A DNA stretch of 64,000 bases from Microbacteriaceae bacterium 3FA27C10 (lineage in GTDB: Bacteria > Actinomycetota > Actinomycetes > Actinomycetales > Microbacteriaceae), in assembly GCA_005502775.1 (NCBI GenBank), contig SCNI01000014.1, positions 21,439-85,438 on the forward strand. The letters run 5' to 3'. Each line of letters opens with the position of its first letter. Position 1 is the stretch's first letter. A program made the translations under genes and the position numbers. Of the stretch, positions 13,332 through 60,696 are shown in pieces. Below the pieces are notes generated by a model. The model worked only from the letters and a program-made list of their open reading frames with translations. It was not told the DNA's origin and did no database searches.

Positions 13332-15959
<2,628 letters not shown>

Positions 15960-25514: not shown

Positions 25515-26903
25515 TCACGCGGTCGAGCGCTGGGGGGTTCTGGTGCGCCGGCGCGTGATGGCGCGGGGCGTCTGCTCGACGTCGACCCATCGGGGCGGCA
25601 CGATGTGCGGCGTGCCGTTCAGCATGGTGAGCGTCCAGGCGGAGCGATGCAGGTGGCTGTGGTGGAAGTGGCAGAGGAGTACGCCGTTGTCGATGTCGGT
25701 GCGTCCGGGTGGATGGTCTTTGGATACCCATTCGTCTGCGTGGTGTGTTTCGCAGAAGGATGGCGGTCGGTCGCAGTCGGGCCAGACGCATCCGCCGTCG
25801 CGGGCTGCTAGTGCTCGGTTCTGGGCCGCGCTGAAGAGCCGCTGGGTCTTGCTGTGGTAGAGCACCGCGCCGCGGTCGCTGAAGAGGGTGGCGGCGAGGG
25901 GGGAGTGGCACCGCAGCTGGGAGATGGTGGAGGCGGGGACGGGTTCGTCGATTCCGTCGATCCAGCCGACGCCGCGGCCCGCCTCGAGGTCGTCGAGCGA
26001 GATGTGCACGTTGACGGTGGTGGTGGCGCCGTTCAGGCGGGGCATGTCGGGGGCGCCGGCCGCGCGGGCGATGAGTTCGGTGACCGTGTCGGCGTTCTTC
26101 TGCACTTGGGTGCGGGTGTCGGCGGTGGCGGCTTCGGCGACGAACTCGTCTTCGCTGAGGAACCGCGGGCCGGCCACGCGGGGGCTTTGCAGGGCTTGGA
26201 TGCTCGCGAGCCACACGCCGCCCTGTTCGGGCGTGAGGGCGAAGCGCCCCCGGATCATGCCGTCGGCGGCCTGTGCGATGGTGAGCGAGCGGAGTTGCTG
26301 GTGCGCGTCGTCTCGGGGTTCGGCGCCGTCGGGGTCGAGGAGCTCGCGCAGGTGGATGGCGAGCTTCGCTGTCTGGTCGGCCGTGAGGTGGCAGTTGATG
26401 GTCTCGTCGACGAGAGTCTGCTCCGCACTCGCCACCTCGTCGGGGTCACATCCGCGCTTCGCGAGCTCGCTGCACCGCTCGACGATGACCGTGGCGGCCT
26501 CGACGGCGAGAACGCCCTCGTCGAGTGCCTCACCGACGGACGGGAAGGGTGCCGGTCCCTCGCCGCCCCCGAGCAGCACGGCCCCACGCAGAAGCAGGCC
26601 GAGCTCGAGCCGCGCCTTGCACTCGCGAGCCGAGGCGCCCGTGACGCTCGCGACGAGCTTGACCGGGCTCGTGAAGTTCTGCGACCGACTCAGCCCCTCG
26701 TCGCCGAGCTCGCTGCGCGACCGCACCCCGACCTCCCCAGCGACCCGAACCTGCCCTGCGGAGACGACCCGCCCGACCGCCTCGAAAGCCGCCATGACGT
26801 CGAGCAATTCCTCGTCGCGCAGACCCGCCAAACCCTCTCCGACCCCGCCCGCGACGATGCGAAGATCGTCGGCGATCTCCCGGAGTCGAGCGGCTGTCTG
26901 CAT
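25515..26903 (-). CDS. DUF222/HNH endonuclease-domain protein (13E12 repeat family), copy 1
   Basis: 462 aa. An N-terminal DUF222 domain (about residues 30-330) is followed by an HNH domain: CVWPDCDRPP, then CETHHADEW, then DNGVLLCHFHHSHLH, with the His-Asn-His residues and zinc Cys in place. These proteins occur in many copies in actinobacterial genomes; their role is not established. TAGAAT ends 6 bases before the ATG. Copy 2 at 33365-34747 differs at only a few dozen residues, and the promoter region is conserved too. Confidence 0.9.
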   Translation of the reverse strand: MQTAARLREIADDLRIVAGGVGEGLAGLRDEELLDVMAAFEAVGRVVSAGQVRVAGEVGVRSRSELGDEGLSRSQNFTSPVKLVASVTGASARECKARLELGLLLRGAVLLGGGEGPAPFPSVGEALDEGVLAVEAATVIVERCSELAKRGCDPDEVASAEQTLVDETINCHLTADQTAKLAIHLRELLDPDGAEPRDDAHQQLRSLTIAQAADGMIRGRFALTPEQGGVWLASIQALQSPRVAGPRFLSEDEFVAEAATADTRTQVQKNADTVTELIARAAGAPDMPRLNGATTTVNVHISLDDLEAGRGVGWIDGIDEPVPASTISQLRCHSPLAATLFSDRGAVLYHSKTQRLFSAAQNRALAARDGGCVWPDCDRPPSFCETHHADEWVSKDHPPGRTDIDNGVLLCHFHHSHLHRSAWTLTMLNGTPHIVPPRWVDVEQTPRAITRRRTRTPQRSTA

Positions 26904-33364: not shown

Positions 33365-34747
33365 TCAGGCGGCTGGGCGTCGGGTGGTGCGTCGGCGGGT
33401 GGTCGGGATCGGTGTTTGAGTGGCGTCGATCCATCGGGGTGGGATGAGGTGGGGCACACCGGTGTGCATGGTCAGTTTCCAGGATGACTTGTGTAGGTGT
33501 GAGTGGTGGAAGTGGCAGAGGAGTACGCCGTTGTCGATGTCGGTGCGTCCGGGTGGATGGTCGGCGGAGACCCATCCGTCTGCGTGGTGGGTTTCGCAGA
33601 AGGAGGGGGGCCGGTCGCAGTCGGGCCAGACGCAGCCGCCGTCGCGGGCGGCGAGGGCTCGATTCTGAGCGGGGCTGAAGAGCCGTTCTGTCTTGCCGTG
33701 GTAGAGCACCGCGCCGCGGTCATCGAAGAGGGTGGCGGCGATAGGGGAGTGGCAGCGCAGCTGGGCCACGGTGGAGGCGGGAACGGACTCGTCGATTCCG
33801 TCGATCCAGCCGACGCCGCGCCCCGCCTCGAGGTCGTCGAGCGAGATGTGCACGTTGACCGTGGTGGTAGCGCCGTTCAGGCGGGGCATGTCGGGGGCGC
33901 CGGTGGCGCGGGCGATGAGTTCGGTGACGGTGTCGGCGTTCTTCTGTGCTTGGGTGCGGGTGTCGGCGGTCGCGGTCTCGGCGACGAACTCGTCCTCGCT
34001 GAGGAACCGGGGGCCGCTCACGCGGGGGCTCTGCAGGGCCTGGATGCTCGCGAGCCACACGCCGCCCTGCTCGGGCGTGAGGGCGAAGCGCCCGCGGATC
34101 ATGCCGTCGGCGGCCTGTGCGATGGTGAGCGAGCGGAGCTGCTGATGCACCTCATCGCGAGGTTCGGCGCCGTCGGGGTCGAGGAGCTCCCGCAGGTGGA
34201 TGGCGAGCTTCGCTGTCTGGTCGGCCGTGAGGTGGCAGTTGATGGTCTCATCGACGAGAGTCTGTTCGGCGCTCGCCACCTCGTCGGGGTCACATCCGCG
34301 CTCGGCGAGCTCGGCGCACCGGCTGACGATGATCGACGCCGTCTCGACAGCGAGGATGCCCTCGTCGAGTGCTTGCCTGACGGCCGGGAACGGGGCCGGA
34401 CCTTCGCCTCCACCCAGCAGTACCGCACCGCGCAATCGCCGGCCGAGCTCGAGCCGCGCCTTGCACTCTCGAGCGGACGTGCCCGTGACGCTCGCGACGA
34501 GCTTGACGGGGCTCGTGAAGTTCTGCGACCGACTCAGCCCCTCGTCGCCGAGCTCGCTCCGCGACCGAACCCCGACCTCCCCGGCAACCCGAACCTGGGC
34601 AGCGGACACGACCCGCCCAACGGCCTCGATGGCGGCCATGATGTCGAGCAATTCCTCGTCGCGCAGCCCCGCCAAACCCTCTCCGACCCCGCCCGCGACG
34701 CCGCGAAGATCGTCGGCGATCTCCTGAAGGCGAGTGGCTGTCTGCAT
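33365..34747 (-). CDS. DUF222/HNH endonuclease-domain protein, copy 2
   Basis: 460 aa, collinear with copy 1 at 25515-26903. The HNH motifs are CVWPDCDRPP, CETHHADGWV and DNGVLLCHFHHSHLH. The two copies diverge mainly at the last 25 residues. The upstream sequence, including TAGAAT 6 bases before the ATG and the following ATACCTGATCAAAGCTCG stretch, is shared almost base for base. The copies are in the same orientation, so they form direct repeats that could recombine. Confidence 0.9.
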   Translation of the reverse strand: MQTATRLQEIADDLRGVAGGVGEGLAGLRDEELLDIMAAIEAVGRVVSAAQVRVAGEVGVRSRSELGDEGLSRSQNFTSPVKLVASVTGTSARECKARLELGRRLRGAVLLGGGEGPAPFPAVRQALDEGILAVETASIIVSRCAELAERGCDPDEVASAEQTLVDETINCHLTADQTAKLAIHLRELLDPDGAEPRDEVHQQLRSLTIAQAADGMIRGRFALTPEQGGVWLASIQALQSPRVSGPRFLSEDEFVAETATADTRTQAQKNADTVTELIARATGAPDMPRLNGATTTVNVHISLDDLEAGRGVGWIDGIDESVPASTVAQLRCHSPIAATLFDDRGAVLYHGKTERLFSPAQNRALAARDGGCVWPDCDRPPSFCETHHADGWVSADHPPGRTDIDNGVLLCHFHHSHLHKSSWKLTMHTGVPHLIPPRWIDATQTPIPTTRRRTTRRPAA

Positions 34748-45271: not shown

Positions 45272-46351
45272 TTGGCTTCGTTGGCGAACAAACCGATGCT
45301 CAGTTTCCCCGCGTTGCGCGGACACATGGGCAGTCGCGACTATTACGTCATCCTCTTACCCCTTAGTCAAGTCGGTCGGATTCTGCAGGTGCCCGACGGG
45401 GAGCAGCTGTCGCCCGAAGCTAGGTCGCAGAGGAAGATCGTACAAAGCCGGATCCCAGAGATCGCCAGCTACATCCTCGACAATGAGGAGGACTGGTTGT
45501 TTTCGAGCATCACCGCCTCATTTGACGCCGACGAAAACTTCATCGAGAGTCCTGAGAATCCCAGCTCCGGTGTACTGCAAATCCCACTCGATGGTCGATT
45601 GCTAGTGAACGATGGTCAGCATCGTAGGGCTGCTATAGAGCGTGCACTTCGGACAGACCCCACTCTTGGCTCGCAGATGATCAGCGTCGTCTTGTTCCCT
45701 GCAGAAAACCTTGAACGAAACCAGCAGATGTTCTCGGACCTGAACAGGACGGCTCAGAAGACATCTCGCTCGCTGAACATCATGTACGACCATCGAGACC
45801 CGCTGAATGAGATTGCTACGGCTCTCGAGTCTCAAGTTCCGCTACTTCGAGGTCGCGTCGAGAAGGAGAGCCAGTCCTTAGCGGTGAGATCGGCAAAGCT
45901 CATCACATTGTCTTCTCTATATGACATGTCACGTGAGGCAATTGGTCGCGAACTAACGGCTACCGAGTCGCGACCAGTTCTTGACGCCTTTGAGAAGTCT
46001 CTCGTCGACGGGTGGCTCTCCCTCACAAATGCGATCCCTCAGTGGCAAGCAATTGCGTCGGATGGCCTCAGACCCGCTGAAGCGCGAGCGGAATTCATAA
46101 ACGTCCACTCTGTCTTCTTCTTCGCCATCGGGGGTGTGCTGCATCGGATGCTTGATGCCGCCGACACTGATGCAATCTTCGACAAGCTGCACGAGATTGA
46201 TTGGCGTCGCGCAAATCATGAATGGCAGGGCGTTTGCATGCTGGGACCCGACATTATTACGCGTCGACAAACCCGCCAAGTTCTCCGCGAGCATTTATTG
46301 TGGCGCGTCGGGCTGCGGCCTGACAAGCCGAAGCCAGCCTTCAGTAACTGA
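45272..46351 (+). CDS. DndB-family DGQHR-domain protein, solitary
   Basis: 359 aa from TTG 45272, with AGGA 7 bases upstream; ATG 45296 is a later option. The defining block LLVNDGQHRRAAIERAL is at residues 110-126, followed by QQMFSDLNRTAQKTSRSLN, the pattern of the DndB family (PF14072). DndB regulates DNA phosphorothioation and binds DNA. No dndA, C, D or E is in the window, so its present role is unclear. Its stop codon touches the first base of helicase fragment D. Confidence 0.82.
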   Translation: MASLANKPMLSFPALRGHMGSRDYYVILLPLSQVGRILQVPDGEQLSPEARSQRKIVQSRIPEIASYILDNEEDWLFSSITASFDADENFIESPENPSSGVLQIPLDGRLLVNDGQHRRAAIERALRTDPTLGSQMISVVLFPAENLERNQQMFSDLNRTAQKTSRSLNIMYDHRDPLNEIATALESQVPLLRGRVEKESQSLAVRSAKLITLSSLYDMSREAIGRELTATESRPVLDAFEKSLVDGWLSLTNAIPQWQAIASDGLRPAEARAEFINVHSVFFFAIGGVLHRMLDAADTDAIFDKLHEIDWRRANHEWQGVCMLGPDIITRRQTRQVLREHLLWRVGLRPDKPKPAFSN

Positions 46352-46790
46352 CGGCCCAGAGCACCCACAAGATCTCCCTGGTCGACCGCGCGCAGAGCGT
46401 GAAGCCGGCCGACATCTCGATCGCGGCCCTCGCGCGGCTCGTTGCCGACGCCAAGTCAGCCGAACATCGCCACCCACTTCTCTCGCAGATGAGGGTGCGC
46501 GCTGGTGCCGACTGGGTCGGTCACGTGAGGCGGATGCTCGGCGCCGTGACGGGGTCGCAGCCGGCCGAATCCGTCCCCGACTTCGGCGTCTACAACTTGT
46601 GGGTGTTCGACGACGTCTCCGAGATGCGTGCGGAGATAGCGCGCCGAGACCGCGAGGGGGGGTCTTGCGCCTAGTCGCGGGCTACGCCTGGACGTGGAAG
46701 TTGAAGGGGCGACAGGCCGGGCTTCGACATCGAGATCGGCGAACTGCGGATGCGCTGGAGGAGCACCCAGACCGAAGGGACCCGGTACTC
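46351..46790 (+). pseudogene. DUF2075 helicase, C-proximal fragment D (frameshifted)
   Basis: Starts directly at the DndB-like stop with a second copy of the segment that ends fragment C. In frame: ISLVDRAQSVKPADIS, then HPLLSQMRVRAGADWVGHVR. The frame changes at a run of seven G near 46656-46662 (LRLVAGYAWTWKLKG follows) and again before DIEIGELRMRWRSTQTE. The helicase C-terminus is absent. It is decayed coding sequence with no likely product. Confidence 0.78.
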
Positions 46791-46850
46791 CGATAGCACC
46801 TGCGCCGGTTTGTGCCAGGGGACTCGAGCGACTGATCTAGCGAGCTACGG

Positions 46851-47000
46851 CTAGTCTGCTTGGTCGACGTAGCCCTGCAACAGGTCTTTGACTACATCTG
46901 TCAGCGTGCGCCCTTGCCGTGCTGCCTTTTCCTGAGCTGCCAAGTACAACTCGGGTGGAATTCGAAACGACTTGTGCGGCGTCTTCGGCTGATTAGGCAT
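46851..47000 (-). CDS. Ribbon-helix-helix-like small protein (antitoxin-like)
   Basis: 49 aa from ATG 47000: HKSFRIPPELYLAAQEKAAR followed by QGRTLTDVVKDLLQGYVDQAD. This is the CopG/Arc pattern of a basic strand then two helices. It is divergent from another RHH-like gene, with a dyad between them. No toxin is adjacent on its own strand, so it may be a lone repressor. Confidence 0.68.
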   Translation of the reverse strand: MPNQPKTPHKSFRIPPELYLAAQEKAARQGRTLTDVVKDLLQGYVDQAD

Positions 47001-47053
47001 TGACTCATCGTGCCAGAGTTGGGATTCAACCAAGACTATTGCGAGGTGTACAT

Positions 47054-47073
47054 CCACCAAATAACCTTGGTGG
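47054..47073. promoter_or_regulatory. Operator between the divergent RHH-like genes
   Basis: CCACCAA-ATAACC-TTGGTGG, a perfect 7-bp inverted repeat. It covers TAACCT (47062-47067), the probable -10 that ends 7 bases before the ATG at 47075, so a bound RHH dimer would block that leaderless promoter. Confidence 0.68.
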
Positions 47074-47074
47074 T

Positions 47075-47500
47075 ATGACACCTTCATCGATCTTCGCATC
47101 TGTGATTGTCCCGGCCTATCTGGCAGATGCCTTCAGGCGCCGGGCGCGAGAGGACCAGTTGTGCGCGGAGGAAGCACTCGTTCGCTTGCTTTCTGATTGG
47201 GTGAACGACCCTGAGCCAAAGCCCGATTGGAAGGACTTGCCTAAATCGCTGTACGAGACCGAGCAGGAGGCGGCCGAGCTCGGCGACATCGGATCGGCTT
47301 CACAGCCAATTCATCTCGGGCGTGACCGCAAGTTGCGTCGCTGCCGACACTGCGGAATTCGCGTGCCGAAGTTGCGTCGAGTCATGCCCTGGAAGGCGTG
47401 CTCAGAGGATTGTTCGGACGAGCTTTGGATCAAAGCGAATCTCGCCAACGTTGAATCTCCAAGGTTGAGCAGCTGGAATTCTCAATTGAATGCGGGCTAA
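47075..47500 (+). CDS. RHH-like protein with C-terminal Cys cluster, unknown
   Basis: 141 aa. The start MTPSSIFASVIVPAYLADAF with RRRAREDQLCAEEALVRLL resembles a strand-helix-helix DNA-binding unit. The C-terminus holds CRHCGIRVPKLRRVMPWKAC and CSEDC, a likely zinc site. TAACCT 7 bases upstream suggests a leaderless start. It stands 350 bases before the methyltransferase genes and could be their controller, but this is inference. Confidence 0.65.
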   Translation: MTPSSIFASVIVPAYLADAFRRRAREDQLCAEEALVRLLSDWVNDPEPKPDWKDLPKSLYETEQEAAELGDIGSASQPIHLGRDRKLRRCRHCGIRVPKLRRVMPWKACSEDCSDELWIKANLANVESPRLSSWNSQLNAG

Positions 47501-47850
47501 CTTGAGTCGATGAACTGCATCATCCGATCGGACTCGAAGAGCTCGGCGGACTGCGCTCGAATATTCGTGTCTCCTTGGGCGGGCTCCAAATCGCTCGCTC
47601 CGAGCGCTTGATGCCATAGAGAGCGTGATCGGCGGACTGCGCCCATGAATGTGGTTTCAAGGAGAGCTCGGGAAGCAACCCAATTGAGATGGCCTGCCGC
47701 TTTTGGCTGGGAGACCGTTCTGCTCCGGTGTGGCAGGAGGGCCGACCGGGTCGGAGAAGGTACCGTAGCAACACTACTTTGGCGCCGCAATGTCGGTGGC
47801 CCGCGTTAGGTTGGGCAAAAGTTCAGATCCAAGTTTTGAAGGGGTGCGTA
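47501..47850. other. Intergenic region before the restriction-modification unit
   Basis: It must contain the promoter of the methyltransferase genes. A minus-strand frame (47497-47790, 97 codons, ending AQSAELFESDRMMQFIDSS) has no start signal and no family I recognise; it may be the tail of a lost gene. Otherwise nothing is visible. Confidence 0.45.
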
Positions 47851-48972
47851 GTGATCCACTCGCTGCCAGTTATTGATCTTTTTGCGGGAGCAGGTGGGCT
47901 CGGCGTTGGCGCGCAACGCGCCGGCGCCGACCTTCGGCTATCCATCGATAACGACGCCTTTTCTGTTGAAACACTCAAGGCGAATCCGGGCTTGCACCTC
48001 GGAGAGGCGGTTCACGCAGACGTAACGAACCTTCACGGCACGGACCTCCGCAGAATGGCGGGCCTCCGCGCGGGCGAAGACGTCGTAGTTATCGGCGGGG
48101 CTCCCTGCCAGCCGTTCAGTAAGGCGGCCTATTGGGTCGATAAAGGCGGAGAAGCCGCGTACAGACGCGCGCGTGCTCGGGGAGAGGCTGCCGAGCGACC
48201 TACCGAAGCCTTGGTAGCCCGACCGGATAGCCGAAGGACGCTAGTGCACGAGTTCTGGCGTCTCGTTACTGAGTCGGATGCCTCGGCGTTCGTGTTTGAG
48301 AACGTGCCCAGCATTCTTCACCCGCGAAATAAGCACATCTTCGAAGCGTTGCGCAGCGACGCCGAGTCGGCAGGTTACAAGACGCGAACTGTGGTAGCCA
48401 CAGCTACCGATTACGGGGCGGCCCAGGCGCGCCAGCGCGTCTTTCTTTTAGGTTCGCTTGAATCGACGCCTGATGCCCCGATTCAGACCCATGCCGAATC
48501 GCCCAGCTCTGGTCAGAGATCCTGGGTTACGGCTGGAGAGGCGTTGCAGCACCTATCAGGGCCGGCCTTCTCAGAAGAGGGCGAGACCGTCGAGGGCCGC
48601 TGGGCCGAGCACCTGCGACAAATCCCTCCGGGTATGAACTATAAGTTCCACACAGCTTGGGCTGGGCATCCCGAGCCCACCTTCGAAACCGAGACTCGCT
48701 ATTGGAACTTCCTTCTTAAGCTCTCTCCGGACCGGCCATCATGGACAATACCTGCTAGCCCCGGACCGTGGACCGGGCCGTTCCATTGGACAGGACGCCG
48801 ACTTCGAGTCAGTGAACTTGCAGCCCTTCAAGCATTTCCCGATGGCTACCAGTTCGCGGGCCCGCGTCGCGAGAAAGTGCGCCAGATTGGAAATGCAGTC
48901 CCATCGCTAATGGGAGAGCACATGGTTGCCTCCGTCCTACGCAGCCTCTCTGCCGCTCGACAGGCCGCCTAG
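47851..48972 (+). CDS. DNA (cytosine-5)-methyltransferase 1
   Basis: 373 aa from GTG 47851 with AAGGGG 8 bases upstream. The C5-MTase motifs are in order: I FAGAGG (11-16), IV APCQPFS with catalytic Cys86, VI ENV (150-152), VIII QARQR (192-196), and X RQIGNAVP near the C-terminus. Between VIII and X lies the target-recognition part, with IPPGMNYKFHTAWAGHPEP and LLKLSPDRPSWTI. It is followed with a one-base overlap by a second, related enzyme. Confidence 0.93.
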   Translation: MIHSLPVIDLFAGAGGLGVGAQRAGADLRLSIDNDAFSVETLKANPGLHLGEAVHADVTNLHGTDLRRMAGLRAGEDVVVIGGAPCQPFSKAAYWVDKGGEAAYRRARARGEAAERPTEALVARPDSRRTLVHEFWRLVTESDASAFVFENVPSILHPRNKHIFEALRSDAESAGYKTRTVVATATDYGAAQARQRVFLLGSLESTPDAPIQTHAESPSSGQRSWVTAGEALQHLSGPAFSEEGETVEGRWAEHLRQIPPGMNYKFHTAWAGHPEPTFETETRYWNFLLKLSPDRPSWTIPASPGPWTGPFHWTGRRLRVSELAALQAFPDGYQFAGPRREKVRQIGNAVPSLMGEHMVASVLRSLSAARQAA

Positions 48973-50051
48973 TGACCGGACCACGAGCAGTTAGCTTGTT
49001 TTCAGGATGTGGCGGACTTGATCTTGGCTTTCGTAACGCAGGCTTCCAGATTATTGCTGGCGTAGACACTGACCCTTTCTCTGCCAAAAGCCACGCCATC
49101 AACTTTCCGGAATCCACCTTCTTCGAGGGGAGCATTGCTGATTTCACTGAGGATCGAGCCATCGAGCTACTTGGTAGAGATCAACTGAGCGACGTAGACC
49201 TGCTAATTGGCGGTCCGCCTTGCCCGCCATTTTCGAAGAGTCGGTTCTACCGCACTGACAAGCCGCGGGCGATGAGCGATCCGGTCGGGGAAGTTACAAT
49301 TTCGGGGTATCTCGAAACGCTAAGGTGGCTAAAGCCGAAGGCCTTCTTGCTCGAGAATGTCGCGGGTATGGCCTTCAAAGTTCACAAAGAGACGCTCGAC
49401 CACATTCTTGAGACTGCCGCCAACCTCGGGTACAAGTGTGAATCGCGGGTGCTGAATGCGGCGGACTATGGTGTCCCGCAGATTCGCCAGCGCTTTTTCA
49501 TCGTTGGTGTGCGCGAAGGCAGCGATTTCAAGTGGCCCGACCCAACGCATCGCGATCCCGCTGTCGAGAATCAATCGACTCTTCCTGTCTGGGAGACGGC
49601 CGGCTCAGTCATTGCCGACCTCGATACAGATGAGAACGCCAAGGATGCAGGCCATGTAGCGGGGGGCAAACATCGCCATCTGCTCGAACAGATCCCGCCC
49701 GGAGACAATTACTTGTTCCTCACCGCAAAGAGGGGCCACCCAAATCCGGAGTTCGAGTGGAGAAAGCGCTACTGGTCGTTTCTCCTGAAGCTCAGCCCGG
49801 ATATGCCCTCATGGACCATCCAAGCGCGACGCTCAAATAACATGGGCCCGCTCCACTGGCGGAACCGGATTCTTCGTATTGAAGAAGTGAAGCGCCTCCA
49901 AACGTTTCCTGACGACTGGCACCTCGTGGGCAATGTCGAGCAGCAATGGCGGCAAGTCGGGAACGCCGTGCCGCCGCGTCTGGCCGAGGCTCTCGCAGTA
50001 CAGGTCGCGTCTACGCTGGCTGAATCTCAAACTGTTCGACTCGTGGCATGA
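48972..50051 (+). CDS. DNA (cytosine-5)-methyltransferase 2
   Basis: 359 aa; GTG overlaps the previous TAG. Motifs: I FSGCGG (10-15), IV GPPCPPFS with catalytic Cys84, VI ENV (128-130), VIII QIRQR (170-174), X RQVGNAVPP. Motif IV reads PCP rather than the usual PCQ. The target region shares IPPGDNYLFLTAKRGHPNP and LLKLSPDMPSWTI with the first enzyme, so the two are paralogues that probably read related or complementary strands of one asymmetric site (inference). Confidence 0.93.
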   Translation: MTGPRAVSLFSGCGGLDLGFRNAGFQIIAGVDTDPFSAKSHAINFPESTFFEGSIADFTEDRAIELLGRDQLSDVDLLIGGPPCPPFSKSRFYRTDKPRAMSDPVGEVTISGYLETLRWLKPKAFLLENVAGMAFKVHKETLDHILETAANLGYKCESRVLNAADYGVPQIRQRFFIVGVREGSDFKWPDPTHRDPAVENQSTLPVWETAGSVIADLDTDENAKDAGHVAGGKHRHLLEQIPPGDNYLFLTAKRGHPNPEFEWRKRYWSFLLKLSPDMPSWTIQARRSNNMGPLHWRNRILRIEEVKRLQTFPDDWHLVGNVEQQWRQVGNAVPPRLAEALAVQVASTLAESQTVRLVA

Positions 50052-50063
50052 CAAAGGTGGATA

Positions 50064-51527
50064 GTGCCAACTCAGAATCAACCAAAGCTTCCTGCGGCGA
50101 ACGAGTTCACTCCCGGGCAGTTGGGCGGCCCAGGCGCACTGTATGAATTGTTCGAGCTAGTTCAGAGTCGACATGGTGACAGAGACTCGATAATTGAGGC
50201 CATTCGCCTTCGATGGTTTTCTACGTCGGCCCAGGATCGTCTGGACCCTGCGGAGCGCCTTGAACAGCAGCGGAAACGAGCAGCCAACGTCGTTTCGGGT
50301 ATGAGGCAATATGGGCTCTTGGAAGCATCAACAGACCCTCTGATGCCGTCTCAACTAGGCGCTGAGATCGCGTCACACGCTAGCGAACCGGCTGTCGGCT
50401 ACGACGTATTCGTCAATTTCCTCTTACGAGAACGGCACGGGTTCGAGTTGCTCGAGATCGCGAGGAGCATTCGGAGTCGTGATGGGACGGTAAGTAAGTC
50501 TGCGGTCGACGTCGACTTAATTGCTCGCGGTTACTCGGTGTCCACGAACAGTTCCTACTCCGGCAAGCTCCGTCAGTGGCTTGAAATCGCTGGTGTCGTC
50601 AACGAGAAGTGGGAAGTTGATGACGCGCGTCTAGTGGAACTTGGTGGGATCAGCCTTGACGGCATTGGCAATTGGCGCAATCTGACCGCAGACCAACAGG
50701 CCGTTATTGAAGTCCTGCGTATTCGATGGACCGGAAATCAAGAGGCAATCCCGTCAAGCGAGTTGCTCGAACTACTTCGACAGCGAAATGTTGATTTCAA
50801 CCCAGGACAGGTCAAGAGGCAAATATATGGTCCTTTGGCTGCCAGCGGATGGATTACCCACGAGGTCACTTCGAGCGGTAGAGGCGGCAAAGGGGGGCTC
50901 ATATCGCTTACCCCGCGAGCCCTCGATGCTGATATTGCGCTTATCAGTGGTCTCAAGCTGGGGGATATTCCCGTCGAATTGCAGAGAGAACTCGGGCGTC
51001 CTCTGCCAGAGATAATTGCCGACCTGGATTCTGACGACACCGGAATCAAGGGTGCGGCGTTGGAGTTGCTCTCGCTCAGAATCGCGGCTGATGCAGGACT
51101 GCTGCCCGTGGAACTTCGACTACGCGGGTCCCAGACAGGAGGCGCGGAGGTGGATTTGGTTGCGGAGATGGCCAACCTACATTTCTCGAGGTGGCTGTTT
51201 CAATGCAAGAACCAGACGGCGCGCGTAGGTTTGAGCGTTCTGGCCAAGGAAGTCGGGATGGCGACGCTTCTGCGAGCACAGGTTGTAGTTATAGTGACGA
51301 CTAGCACGTTTGCTCGTACTGTCCGGACATATGCAAGGCAGGCCGCTGAGTCAAGTGCGATTCAAATAGTTCTTCTCGATAGGAACTCACTTGCTGCCTA
51401 TCGAAGAGAGGGCCCGCGAGCGCTCCGAGCGGAACTTAGGCAGTATGCTTTGGACTCTTTGACGCTCAAGCGTTCCCAACTTGCCGCTGTTCCGAGCGAT
51501 GCCGAACAAATGGACGAGGGTGAATAG
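50064..51527 (+). CDS. Winged-helix PD-(D/E)XK restriction endonuclease
   Basis: 487 aa from GTG 50064 with AAAGGTGG upstream, 12 bases after methyltransferase 2. Residues 20-310 look like a series of winged-helix modules (SSYSGKLRQWLEIAGVVNEK is one). A Mrr-like nuclease domain follows: Glu334 in ALELLSLRIAADAG, Glu362-Asp364 in GGAEVDLVAEM, and Q380-K382 in LFQCKN. The QCK form is common in restriction enzymes. With the two methyltransferases it makes a compact restriction-modification system; its site is unknown. Confidence 0.85.
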   Translation: MPTQNQPKLPAANEFTPGQLGGPGALYELFELVQSRHGDRDSIIEAIRLRWFSTSAQDRLDPAERLEQQRKRAANVVSGMRQYGLLEASTDPLMPSQLGAEIASHASEPAVGYDVFVNFLLRERHGFELLEIARSIRSRDGTVSKSAVDVDLIARGYSVSTNSSYSGKLRQWLEIAGVVNEKWEVDDARLVELGGISLDGIGNWRNLTADQQAVIEVLRIRWTGNQEAIPSSELLELLRQRNVDFNPGQVKRQIYGPLAASGWITHEVTSSGRGGKGGLISLTPRALDADIALISGLKLGDIPVELQRELGRPLPEIIADLDSDDTGIKGAALELLSLRIAADAGLLPVELRLRGSQTGGAEVDLVAEMANLHFSRWLFQCKNQTARVGLSVLAKEVGMATLLRAQVVVIVTTSTFARTVRTYARQAAESSAIQIVLLDRNSLAAYRREGPRALRAELRQYALDSLTLKRSQLAAVPSDAEQMDEGE

Positions 51528-57585: not shown

Positions 57586-57597
57586 TTGACATGTCAA
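57586..57597. promoter_or_regulatory. MarR operator TTGACATGTCAA
   Basis: A perfect 12-bp palindrome between the divergent luciferase-type and marR genes, ending 12 bases before the marR GTG. It sits where a -35 box would be and is the expected MarR site. Confidence 0.75.
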
Positions 57598-57609
57598 CTA
57601 GGAGGGTTC

Positions 57610-58116
57610 GTGGAAAATTCCCTGGCAGCGGAGTCGCCGAATCGCCGTCGATCGCCGACCGCGGAGGAGCTGCGGGTGTGGCGCGACTTCGTCGAGACCG
57701 GCGACCGCATCCGGTCCCGTCTCGCCGCGCGGCTGCAGGCCGAGTCGGGGTTGTCGACGGGGGACTACGCGGTGCTGCTCGCGCTGTCGGAGGCTCCGGG
57801 GAGGCGCCTGCGGTCGTCGGAGCTGGCGGCGGCGATCGACTGGGAGCGGAGCCGGTTGTCGCACCATCTCGGGCGGATGGAGGCTCGGGGGCTCGTGGTG
57901 CGGGAGGCGTCGGCCCACGACAGCCGCGGCGCCGAGGCCGTGCTCACCGCGGCGGGGGCCTCGCAGTTCCGGCGGGCGTCGGCCTCGCACCTGCGGGCCG
58001 TGCAGGAGCTGTTCGTCGAGGCGTTCGTGCCAGGCGGGCGGCACGACGGCGTGGGGCTGCGCCCGGTCGAAGAGGTCACGGGGGCCCTGCGCGAGCATCT
58101 CGCGTCGATGGGGTAG
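57610..58116 (+). CDS. MarR-family transcriptional regulator
   Basis: 168 aa. The winged helix includes RSSELAAAIDWERSRLSHHL and the wing REASAHDSRGAEAVLTAAG. GTG 57610 has AGGAGG 6 bases upstream; the ATG at 57586 falls in the operator palindrome. It probably represses the divergent luciferase-type operon and itself. Confidence 0.9.
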   Translation: MENSLAAESPNRRRSPTAEELRVWRDFVETGDRIRSRLAARLQAESGLSTGDYAVLLALSEAPGRRLRSSELAAAIDWERSRLSHHLGRMEARGLVVREASAHDSRGAEAVLTAAGASQFRRASASHLRAVQELFVEAFVPGGRHDGVGLRPVEEVTGALREHLASMG

Positions 58117-58241: not shown

Positions 58242-59132
58242 ATGGGGGACGACATGGGTATAGAGGGAGAACTGCGGAGCGACGAGCAATCGGGCGTGAG
58301 CATCCAGAGCTTGGCTCGCGACGGCATCCTGCATCGGGAGTGGTCGACCGAACTGACCGAGGTGCAGTCGCGTTCGTACGCCGCGATACTCGGCGCGGAG
58401 CCGCCTGTCGACGGCCGGAGCTGGTACGCGGGCGAGGCGCTTGCCACGAAGTTCCTGACGCTCCTCGACGGCACGCTGGAGGCTGCGGTCATCCAGCACT
58501 TCTGCGCGGTCGCCGGGAGGGAGTTCAAGCAGACTTTCCGGCTGGTGTCCGGCACGGATCTTCGCCGGCGCTACCTTCCGGATGCCACCAGGCTTCGAAC
58601 GATCGACCTCGTCATCATCGATTCCGCCGAGTGGAATGACGACGAGTCCGCCGGGGCGCCAGCACGTGACGCGGTAGTCGCCATCGAATGCAAGTTCAAG
58701 GCACAGGTCAACTACGGGGATTGCGGGGGTCACGGCGACGGACTCCTGTACGGCAATCAGATCGTGTGCTACCCGAACGGATGCTCCAGCAGCGCCGTCG
58801 TCGCGCCGCAGGTCGGCTTCGTCTGGCTCGGCCTGCCGAATGCGGACGGGGACGTGGTCTGGCCGCCGGCGAGTGCGATGAACCCGCGGTGGATCGAGCT
58901 GCAGCGGTCGCGAGGTGCCTCGGCGGGGACGCTCGCCCTGTACACCGACTTGCTCGCGCTGCAGACAGAGGTGGTCGAGAGCGGTATCTGGACGGTGACG
59001 GGCTGGCCGGCTCTCTACGACCTCGTGGAGGAGACGCTGCGTGAGACGCATCCGCACGCCGTCGCACCGGTGCTGCGAGCACTCGGCGCGCGGCCCGCCT
59101 ACCGCGCGGCGGGCTCCAGGGAACACAGATGA
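58242..59132 (+). CDS. Putative PD-(D/E)XK nuclease-like protein, unknown family
   Basis: 296 aa from ATG 58242 with GGGGGAG upstream. I do not recognise the family. Conserved-looking acidic residues fit a PD-(D/E)XK core: Glu80 (DGTLEAAVIQHF), Asp122 (TIDLVIID) and Glu149-x-Lys151 (AIECKFKAQVNYG). It lacks membrane segments. It ends 22 bases before a degenerate-kinase gene on the same strand, and the two may act together. Nuclease activity is inferred from spacing and motif only. Confidence 0.6.
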   Translation: MGDDMGIEGELRSDEQSGVSIQSLARDGILHREWSTELTEVQSRSYAAILGAEPPVDGRSWYAGEALATKFLTLLDGTLEAAVIQHFCAVAGREFKQTFRLVSGTDLRRRYLPDATRLRTIDLVIIDSAEWNDDESAGAPARDAVVAIECKFKAQVNYGDCGGHGDGLLYGNQIVCYPNGCSSSAVVAPQVGFVWLGLPNADGDVVWPPASAMNPRWIELQRSRGASAGTLALYTDLLALQTEVVESGIWTVTGWPALYDLVEETLRETHPHAVAPVLRALGARPAYRAAGSREHR

Positions 59133-59154
59133 GCGTGGGGTAGCTTCGCTGTTC

Positions 59155-60696
59155 GTGGCGGAAGAACTGGGTCAGCAGGCGATCGTGTCGCGCGGGGCGG
59201 GCATCCGCGTGCGGGAGGTCGATCTCGGGGCGAGGGCGCTCATCGGGAGCGGGGCCGCCACCCAGGTGCACCGGCTCGAGGCCTTCACCGTTCCCGGGTA
59301 CCTCGGCGGGCTCGCGCTGGTGCGCATCCGGGATCGGGAGACGACGCCGACCCACGGGGACTCGGCGGTGCTCGCTCAGCTCGTCGCGATGCGGTGGGGG
59401 CTCGACGCGCGGGAGCGCGCGCTGCTCGACGGACTCGCCGCGTGGCCGCTGGCCGTGGTGGAGGGCGAGGGCGGCGACGTCGTGGGGTGCCTCGTGCCGT
59501 TGGCTGCGCATCCCTTCTACTACCTGCCGGCCGACGACACGAAGAACGGCAAGGTGCCGCAGCAGGCGAAGTGGCTCGTGGTCGCTCCGAAGCGGGCCCG
59601 GCGGGCCGGCGCCGCCGCCGTGGGGGAGCGGGATGTCGTCGCGCGCAGCACCGTGCTGGCGCGGGTGTGCCTGCTGCTCGAGCTGCTGCATCGGCACGGG
59701 GTGGTGTACGGCGACCTCTCCGATCGGGCGGTGCTGTTCGGGGCCGGAGACGTCGCCGAGGCGTTCGTGGTGGGATGCGAGGGAGCGGCTATCGCCGGCG
59801 ACGGCACGCCGCAGCGCAACAGCGCGGGGTGGGCGGCGCCCGAGGCGTTCGGCGGCGAAGACGACGACGAAGACGGGAAGACGGATGCCGCCCTCTCGAC
59901 CGCCCCGTCGGTGCAGACGGTCGCGACCGACCTCTACAAGCTCGGCCTCCTCATCCTGCGGGTGCTCGCGCCGGCCGGCGACGGGCTCGAACGCAGCCGG
60001 GACGCCGACCGCGTGCGCGGGGTGCTCGACGAGACCGGGCAGCGGATGATGCAGGATGCGCTGGGCGAGGAGCCGGGCGACCGGCCCACCGCCGCCGAGT
60101 GGTACGCCTACCTGCGCGGCCTGATCGTGGAGAACCTCGAGGCGCCCGTCGTCCGGAGCGTCACGGTGACTCCGGCGCTCGTGGCCGAGGGCGACGAGGT
60201 GCGGCTCGAGGTGGAGTTCACCGGCGCCCGGCAGCTCACCATCGAGCTGCCGGGGCGGGCCGACATCACGCGGGAGGTCGGCGGGCGGATCGTGTCGGAG
60301 CGGTTCACCGCCCGGCAGAGCGGGCGCATCGGCGTTCGGGCCCGCAACGACCACGGCGAGACCGCCGCATTGTCGAACGTAGTGCGGGTGCTGCCGGTGC
60401 CGGAGCCGTCACGGGTGGCCGTCGAGGCGCCCGACGTGGCCGCGATGCTCGGGGCGCTGCCCGATCTCGCACCCCTCGAAGCCGCGGTCGGCATCTCGGC
60501 GGATGCCGCCGGCGACGGCTCGCTCGCCGAGCGCGTCTCCGCCCTGCAGGAGCGGATCGGCGCCGACGCGCTGCCGCTGAACGAGCTGCTCCGCATCGGC
60601 CTCGAGGCCGAGCGGGTGTCGCGCGAGCGCGACGCGCTCTTCCCGTCGTTCGAGGAGTTCCTCGGCGGCGTCACCGACTCGAAGAATCAGCGCTGA
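59155..60696 (+). CDS. Degenerate protein kinase with Ig-like domain
   Basis: 513 aa from GTG 59155; TAGCTT ends 8 bases upstream. The kinase-like domain spans about 25-360: LHRHGVVYGDLSDRAVLF is the catalytic loop with Asp187, and GWAAPEAF is the APE motif. The Asn usually found after the loop is Ala193-like, and the DFG position reads VVGCEGA with no Asp, so phosphotransfer is doubtful. An Ig-like beta-sandwich follows (SVTVTPALVAEGDEVRLEV to GIGVRARN-type strands, about 325-420), then a helical tail. No membrane segment. Confidence 0.68.
   Translation: MAEELGQQAIVSRGAGIRVREVDLGARALIGSGAATQVHRLEAFTVPGYLGGLALVRIRDRETTPTHGDSAVLAQLVAMRWGLDARERALLDGLAAWPLAVVEGEGGDVVGCLVPLAAHPFYYLPADDTKNGKVPQQAKWLVVAPKRARRAGAAAVGERDVVARSTVLARVCLLLELLHRHGVVYGDLSDRAVLFGAGDVAEAFVVGCEGAAIAGDGTPQRNSAGWAAPEAFGGEDDDEDGKTDAALSTAPSVQTVATDLYKLGLLILRVLAPAGDGLERSRDADRVRGVLDETGQRMMQDALGEEPGDRPTAAEWYAYLRGLIVENLEAPVVRSVTVTPALVAEGDEVRLEVEFTGARQLTIELPGRADITREVGGRIVSERFTARQSGRIGVRARNDHGETAALSNVVRVLPVPEPSRVAVEAPDVAAMLGALPDLAPLEAAVGISADAAGDGSLAERVSALQERIGADALPLNELLRIGLEAERVSRERDALFPSFEEFLGGVTDSKNQR

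Follow-up and report, generated by a model that had tools for sequence, protein, structure and literature searches.

The stretch of DNA analysed here, referred to as the window, comprises 64,000 nucleotides of contig SCNI01000014.1 from Microbacteriaceae bacterium 3FA27C10, and its end coincides with the end of the contig. Near this end, two genes lie on the forward strand. The first open reading frame (ORF), P0001 (58242–59132, 296 aa), is a rare accessory gene for a predicted PD-(D/E)XK-type nuclease, and the second, P0002 (59155–60696, 513 aa, GTG start), encodes a genus-wide pseudokinase with an Ig-like domain. The window is Herbiconiux-like, the closest named matches of both proteins being from Herbiconiux in a protein database search, and neither gave a Pfam match at E-values up to 5. 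An earlier sequence-only reading of the locus had tentatively taken the two adjacent same-strand genes, spaced by 22 bases, for a two-gene defence system; the ORF coordinates confirmed the strand and the spacing from the P0001 stop to the P0002 start. P0002 is preceded by an element, a 42-bp promoter-like sequence (59116–59157, +), which is common to the P0002 gene and to the gene of a second protein, DUF4407 (PF14362), located elsewhere in the genome.

The element was recognised by sequence recurrence and contains GGGAAC (59119–59124, +), 16 nt, TAGCTT (59141–59146, +), 8 nt and the GTG start codon of P0002. The two hexamers were putatively assigned as a -35-like part and a -10-like part of the TANNNT form, respectively. 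Across 25 distinct sites, the conserved part extends from approximately -39 to +4, counted from the GTG, and fades outside these limits. When up to 3 mismatches were allowed, two sites only could be detected in the own genome, one before P0002 and the other before its sole DUF4407 gene. A wider pattern applied to 16 genomes of the genus, a set which overlaps with the named Herbiconiux loci discussed below (e.g. G205 and H. solani) and is not independent of them, gave exactly two sites in 13 genomes, one site in each of G155 and G307, and none in G093, while the reversed control pattern gave no match in any of the 16. All 28 sites directly precede a pseudokinase or DUF4407 match. The pattern was built from known sites, and matches before those genes are therefore expected by construction, but the absence of other sites from the genomes is not. 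In G155, a more diverged copy of the element stands ahead of the pseudokinase gene.

There is a good probability that the element is a promoter and that P0002 and DUF4407 are co-expressed. Passages of a study of M. tuberculosis describe TANNNT centred 7–12 bp ahead of the transcription start as the usual -10 of that species (PMC3898074). Because the spacing in the window fits this arrangement, transcription starting at the GTG itself and a leaderless mRNA for P0002 are likely.

The DUF4407 match in the own genome (G000:C76:13532-14545) scored 253.7 bits, the family cut-off being 31.3. The protein is 564 aa long, and a crude hydropathy scan gave five windows corresponding to four likely transmembrane stretches, three of them N-terminal and one past a long stretch which is probably a coiled coil. 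At the extreme end of contig C76 (L047), the stretch around the element at the DUF4407 start recurs in inverted orientation, which raised the question of an invertible promoter; this was rejected, as no other examined locus with that gene start shows an inverted copy, and the copy is probably an assembly artefact.

DUF4407 and the pseudokinase were each found in 15 of the 16 genus genomes, and the remaining genome, G093, which is 99% complete, lacks both genes and the element. The two genes lie on one contig in 13 of the 15 genomes, and in all 13 DUF4407 is located downstream on the same strand, with 2.4–14.8 kb between match starts. In Herbiconiux sp. VKM Ac-1786, an ORF with an NYN domain (L024 11850-12272) was observed between them. 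Among the passages found of papers naming DUF4407, none assigns it a function.

The protein database search with P0002 recovered 46 proteins, its own included, and two of the 46 (P0004, the window's own, and P0049) were left out of the alignment. P0002 itself has YGDLSD with D187 (codon 59713–59715, +) and A-P-E at 228–230, with Ala192 at the position of the metal-binding Asn and Gly207 at that of the DFG Asp. Among 42 Herbiconiux-type rows, each of the 41 without a gap at position 187 kept the D. Position 192 held S in 37 rows, A in 3, P in 1 and a gap in 1, and in no case N; all 42 rows had G at position 207. The kept catalytic Asp and APE motif and the lost Asn and DFG Asp, as described from the sequence alone, were thus borne out in P0002. 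The beta-3 Lys is also gone, with no K in 39 non-gap rows, although the alignment is loose there and a Lys-bearing outgroup row is off by a column. The structure prediction recovered a two-lobed kinase fold, so that P0002 combines the fold with the loss of the residues required in an active kinase (no Asn, no DFG Asp and, by the looser alignment, no Lys), and on its residues it is a pseudokinase and not a kinase. Some pseudokinase-like families bind nucleotide in an unusual manner and perform another transfer reaction. A living P0002 of that kind would agree with the retention of D187, the A-P-E region and the kinase fold, but it is quite improbable, since none of the 42 genus-type rows retains the Asn or the DFG Asp (or the Lys, with the above limit), whereas relatives outside the genus keep them.

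The beta-sandwich announced for P0002 was likewise seen in the predicted structure, at residues 330–413, approximately (60142–60393, +), and is probably an Ig-like domain. It contains eight strands at a predicted local distance difference test score (pLDDT) of ~90, the block as a whole ranging over 86–93; its I-set match reached only E 0.16, and fold searches with the whole of P0002 were filled by kinase rows. C-terminal helices follow at residues ~428–507 (60436–60675, +) with lower model confidence. Screening with PADLOC matched residues 168–324 to the MkoA kinase (E 2.4e-5) over profile positions 128–278, which is 151 of the 1112 positions of that model and not a full-length match. The top Foldseek rows were animal kinase-Ig proteins such as twitchin and titin kinase, which have the same layout of a kinase followed by an Ig domain; the likeness is one of layout only, as the domain placement is not superposable (root-mean-square deviation ~18–20 Å) and identity is 13%. 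Pseudokinases and kinase-Ig proteins are already known kinds, and P0002 may also resemble the bacterial pseudokinase adaptor of the MviN/FhaA type, whose dead kinase fold offers a docking site at a membrane protein. A partner is known for only few bacterial pseudokinases. In a sample of the family, P0002 was found in 7 of 299 genomes, six of the genus and one weak.

Outside the genus, the closest parallel was found in Rhodococcoides kyotonense KB10 (L097/L029), in which DUF4407, an unknown gene, a DA1-like peptidase gene and a kinase-Ig gene follow one another on one strand. The kinase-Ig protein has the same kinase and Ig-like layout as P0002 at 28% identity over the alignment, with DUF4407 upstream on the same strand. 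Unlike P0002, it keeps the Lys, the DxxxxN residues with their Asn and, in IDLDS, a DFG-like Asp, and it is probably active as judged from these residues. A class-wide search with the kinase-Ig alignment matched 32 of 394 genomes at E ≤ 1e-12, including the own genome and G930, which is apparently the same R. kyotonense assembly. Within the order, DUF4407 was over the cut-off in 18 of 248 genomes, the own one included. At two of the 17 other DUF4407 loci (G368 and G421, from two further families), an Ig-profile ORF without a kinase overlaps or abuts DUF4407 directly upstream on the same strand (L080 9463-10680 and L084 10110-10709; E 1e-4 and 1e-3). Among the 6042 ORFs searched with the Ig profile, these two DUF4407-adjacent ORFs were the only ones at E < 0.01 besides the kinase-Ig proteins. 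Because Ig ORFs devoid of a kinase precede DUF4407 in G368 and G421, it is the Ig-like domain rather than the kinase that seems to be tied to DUF4407.

A functional tie between P0002 and DUF4407 can be put forward with fairly good confidence, because the joint presence and absence, the linkage, the near-exclusive element, the operon of R. kyotonense and the Ig ORFs beside DUF4407 all point to it. Several observations weigh against it. The linkage within the genus is one shared inheritance and not 13 independent events; it is not seen in the own genome or in G303, which carry the two genes on different contigs, and other genes stand between the pseudokinase and DUF4407. DUF4407 was present in none of the 18 kinase neighbourhoods examined from the 30 other genomes with matches (besides R. 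kyotonense), and no such kinase was seen near DUF4407 at any of the 17 other loci of the order, several of these stretches being short contigs. DUF4407 thus usually works without such a kinase. Of the same 17 loci, 15 have no such Ig-like protein either, and the two Ig matches beside DUF4407 are weak. The gene-order data are weakened further by the crude, purpose-written gene caller with which most loci were read. Finally, the DUF4407 ATG lies 76–79 nt past the element's GTG in the six loci measured, and the interval is in frame and open in one, interrupted by a stop in three and in another frame in two. Since a stop or frame change intervenes in five of the six, the leaderless reading suits the pseudokinase better than many DUF4407 genes; in L020, L021, L026 and L027, the DUF4407 gene seems to begin at the element's GTG itself.

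These observations bear on a second explanation of the element, namely that it is a relic of one promoter copied to a second nearby gene, the two proteins having no common task. The location of both genes in one region, the near-identity of the element between them and the frequent occurrence of DUF4407 without this kinase would all be accounted for. Against such a relic stand the joint absence in G093, the linkage of DUF4407 with the Ig-kinase relative in R. kyotonense and, in two further families, the Ig-like proteins encoded immediately ahead of DUF4407, and we regard it as unlikely.

The reading preferred here, for which the balance of evidence is moderately favourable, is that P0002 shares a promoter-like element with DUF4407 and acts as a dead adaptor holding or gating DUF4407 through its Ig-like domain, P0001 being unrelated cargo. 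The adaptor role as such has somewhat less than an even chance. Under this proposal of a membrane signalling module, a single factor reading the 42-bp element would switch on P0002 and DUF4407 together. DUF4407 would be the membrane protein, and P0002 its soluble dead-kinase partner, docking through the Ig-like domain in contact with DUF4407 or with the partners of DUF4407. The former kinase cleft of P0002 may bind a ligand to be sensed, or P0002 may merely bridge to other proteins; the signal would presumably concern the cell envelope. P0002 probably descends from an active kinase-Ig protein whose gene belonged to a DUF4407 operon, as in Rhodococcoides kyotonense today. A bolder version, with somewhat less than an even chance, is a two-gene regulon, in which the element serves as a dedicated promoter with just two sites in a 4-Mb genome and drives a signalling complex of DUF4407 and the dead kinase-Ig protein, and in which the kinase died once it had become a fixed docking subunit. 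If true, DUF4407 would thereby receive a first function, and a novel type of pseudokinase receptor would be defined in bacteria. The near-exclusive common element, together with the joint presence and absence, makes the two proteins a directly testable partner pair. A tie between a pseudokinase and DUF4407 through such an element appears to be new, as it was not met in the passages and listings obtained by literature search.

For the neighbouring gene P0001, a nine-row family alignment revealed common residues E65, T69, D122, E149, K151, C161, Q173, C176, Y177, G180 and C181, among others. E65 (codon 58434–58436), D122 (58605–58607) and both the E and the K of the (D/E)xK motif E149-C-K151 (58686–58694), all on the forward strand, were invariant in 9 of 9 rows. 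Position 80 was E in six rows, Q in two and N in one. The nuclease-like spacing proposed earlier for Glu80, Asp122 and Glu149-x-Lys151 therefore held for its last two parts, but Glu80 was rejected as a catalytic residue because that position varies, and the upstream acidic residue is the invariant E65. Since the nine rows keep E65, D122 and E149-x-K151, P0001 is rather likely to be a nuclease of the PD-(D/E)XK type on the strength of this motif.

Other searches added little to this assignment. The AF2 prediction of P0001, made with 4 rows, was too poor for the fold to be read (pLDDT 41, pTM 0.34). Two of five plasmid relatives of P0001 weakly matched PDDEXK_4 (PF14281), Mrr_cat (PF04471) or DUF2726 (PF10881), the last of which we take to belong to the PD-(D/E)XK superfamily. 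These matches span the stretch from the D to the ExK at E 0.066–0.11, below the family cut-offs, and they count for little because unrelated families scored equally in the Pfam search of the relatives (e.g. Sterol-sensing, 0.082). PADLOC gave a weak match of P0001 to AbiEii (E 0.017) and none to PD-T4-5 at E up to 5. The P0001 profile found nothing better than E 1 by sequence search of the PDB, the best PHROGs match was at E 0.16, and NCBIfam gave no match. No relatives were found among the viral contigs and phages searched, nor in the genome contig scan with the P0001 sequence alone.

The protein database contained one close relative of P0001, P0003 from Herbiconiux sp. 11R-BC, with 96% identity. 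An alternative start of P0001 may be the GTG at 58296, where this sole close relative is annotated to begin. P0001 matched 2 of 299 genomes in the family sample (the window's own and G159), and a profile of its protein family matched 1 of 396 in the order sample and 1 of 16 in the genus, the last two being the window's own. All these counts are lower bounds, as the protein homologue search missed plasmid relatives that were recovered by tblastn. The translated search of plasmid records detected relatives in five plasmids of 417–608 kb, three of Curtobacterium and two of Pseudarthrobacter. Known relatives thus comprise one Herbiconiux strain, one chromosome (G159, apparently Amnibacterium setariae) and five plasmids. 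The chromosomal copy is flanked by genes which we take to be gpsA-like and ddl-like. All five plasmid copies sit ~0.2–1.2 kb from class Ib nrd (ribonucleotide-reductase) genes; in both Pseudarthrobacter plasmids (L031, L033), nrdE and nrdF are separated by other genes. L032 carries a fusion of a P0001-like domain with a ~300-aa protein that has no Pfam match, and in L034 this fusion partner is encoded by a separate upstream gene (L032 6978-8639, L034 7051-7953).

This distribution decides against P0001 and P0002 as a two-gene anti-phage system in which the pseudokinase senses and the nuclease cuts. Their adjacency on the same strand at 22 bp and the nuclease-like motif of P0001 spoke for it, as did a DndB/C5-methylase/Mrr island ~7 kb upstream and a PD-T4-5-type gene in the corresponding slot of H. 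solani. The two genes are not conserved neighbours: of the same 16 genus genomes, 15 carry the pseudokinase and one a member of the nuclease family, against 7 and 2 of 299 in the family sample, and this is the unlinked distribution of homologues that the sequence-only reading had itself named as its refutation. The order of genes in the relatives led to the same rejection. P0001 relatives lie by nrd or adenine-methylase genes, or alone, and within the 16–19 kb around each of six relatives (one chromosomal, five on plasmids), a profile search at E 0.01 revealed no P0002-family kinase, DUF4407 or such Ig-like domain. A promoter-like element of its own also precedes the pseudokinase gene, and the stop codon of the nuclease gene falls inside it. 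Taken singly, both halves of the sequence-only reading stand, P0001 as a likely nuclease by motif and P0002 as a genuine pseudokinase that carries an Ig-like domain, but their union does not; P0001 and P0002 almost certainly form no functional pair, and the two-gene system is largely refuted and very improbable.

The plasmid relatives suggested another partner for P0001. Each of the three Curtobacterium plasmids has a P0001-family member in tail-to-tail arrangement with the gene of a D12-class adenine methylase. In plasmid L030, this member is a second, paralogous copy (13902-14804), and the convergent methylase gene (14808-15563) lies 3 bp from it. P0001 could accordingly be one half of a type II restriction-modification pair whose methylase was lost. 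This is an unlikely origin, as there is no annotated methylase in the stretches around the two Pseudarthrobacter copies, and no relative of the D12 methylase was found in the own genome (0 of 2 genomes, by a search without a positive control and hence weak). No adjacent cognate methyltransferase for P0001 was present among its immediate neighbours in the window.

The position of P0001 can be explained by a variable slot upstream of the pseudokinase. In the window, this slot is bordered upstream by a MarR-type regulator gene (57586–58116, +), and P0001 fills the interval from MarR to the element. The G+C content of P0001 is 67.3%, compared with 74.4% in P0002 and 73.4% in the MarR gene. H. solani, H. 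ginsengi and VKM Ac-1786 share with the window an arrangement of F420-reductase-like and luciferase-like genes on one strand and MarR followed by the pseudokinase on the other, the names of these flanking genes (MarR included) being our presumption from their sequences. MarR is absent from the loci of H. daphne, H. oxytropis and nzgw90, which do have the luciferase-like gene, and the remaining named loci differ. Between the MarR stop and the element, H. ginsengi has 20 bp, and VKM Ac-1786 has 892 bp in which no gene was called. The slot ahead of the pseudokinase that P0001 occupies in the window holds, in H. solani, a PD-T4-5-type gene (L019 9253-9945, PADLOC E 1.2e-15; Pfam Abi_2 0.005, below cut-off), which stops 16 bp ahead of the element. 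PD-T4-5 is an AbiF/D-like defence gene according to passages of the source (PMC9519451).

The P0001 stop codon (59130–59132) falls within the 42-bp element, and its last codons (SREHR) therefore appear to be written in an older promoter-like sequence. P0003 ends in identical residues, which suggests the same insertion site in strain 11R-BC. P0001 is thus likely to be cargo unrelated to P0002. Because the H. solani slot carries a PD-T4-5-type gene, a defence role for P0001 alone stays reasonable, and its chances are about even; such a cargo gene would act as a stand-alone restriction-type nuclease on incoming DNA. The case is a warning against operon calls from adjacency, as a close neighbour can be recent cargo while the likely partner lies elsewhere. 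A slot with a PD-T4-5-type gene in one species and a predicted nuclease in another is also a place to seek more defence genes.

Further candidate defence genes were observed. At L012 15617-16855, a PDC-S48 candidate defence gene (PADLOC E 4.2e-159) lies ~5 kb from a pseudokinase orthologue. In the window itself, a likely defence island on a mobile stretch occupies 45272–51527, where a DndB-family gene (PF14072, E 1.9e-94) shares one strand with a tandem pair of C5 cytosine methylase genes and a restriction-type gene of the Mrr_cat family. The region of 38–52 kb around the DndB genes has 57–61% G+C, against 70–74% across most of the remaining window. Two DUF222 genes on the reverse strand (25515–26903 and 33365–34747), ~6.5 kb apart, were very alike over the 70 residues compared.

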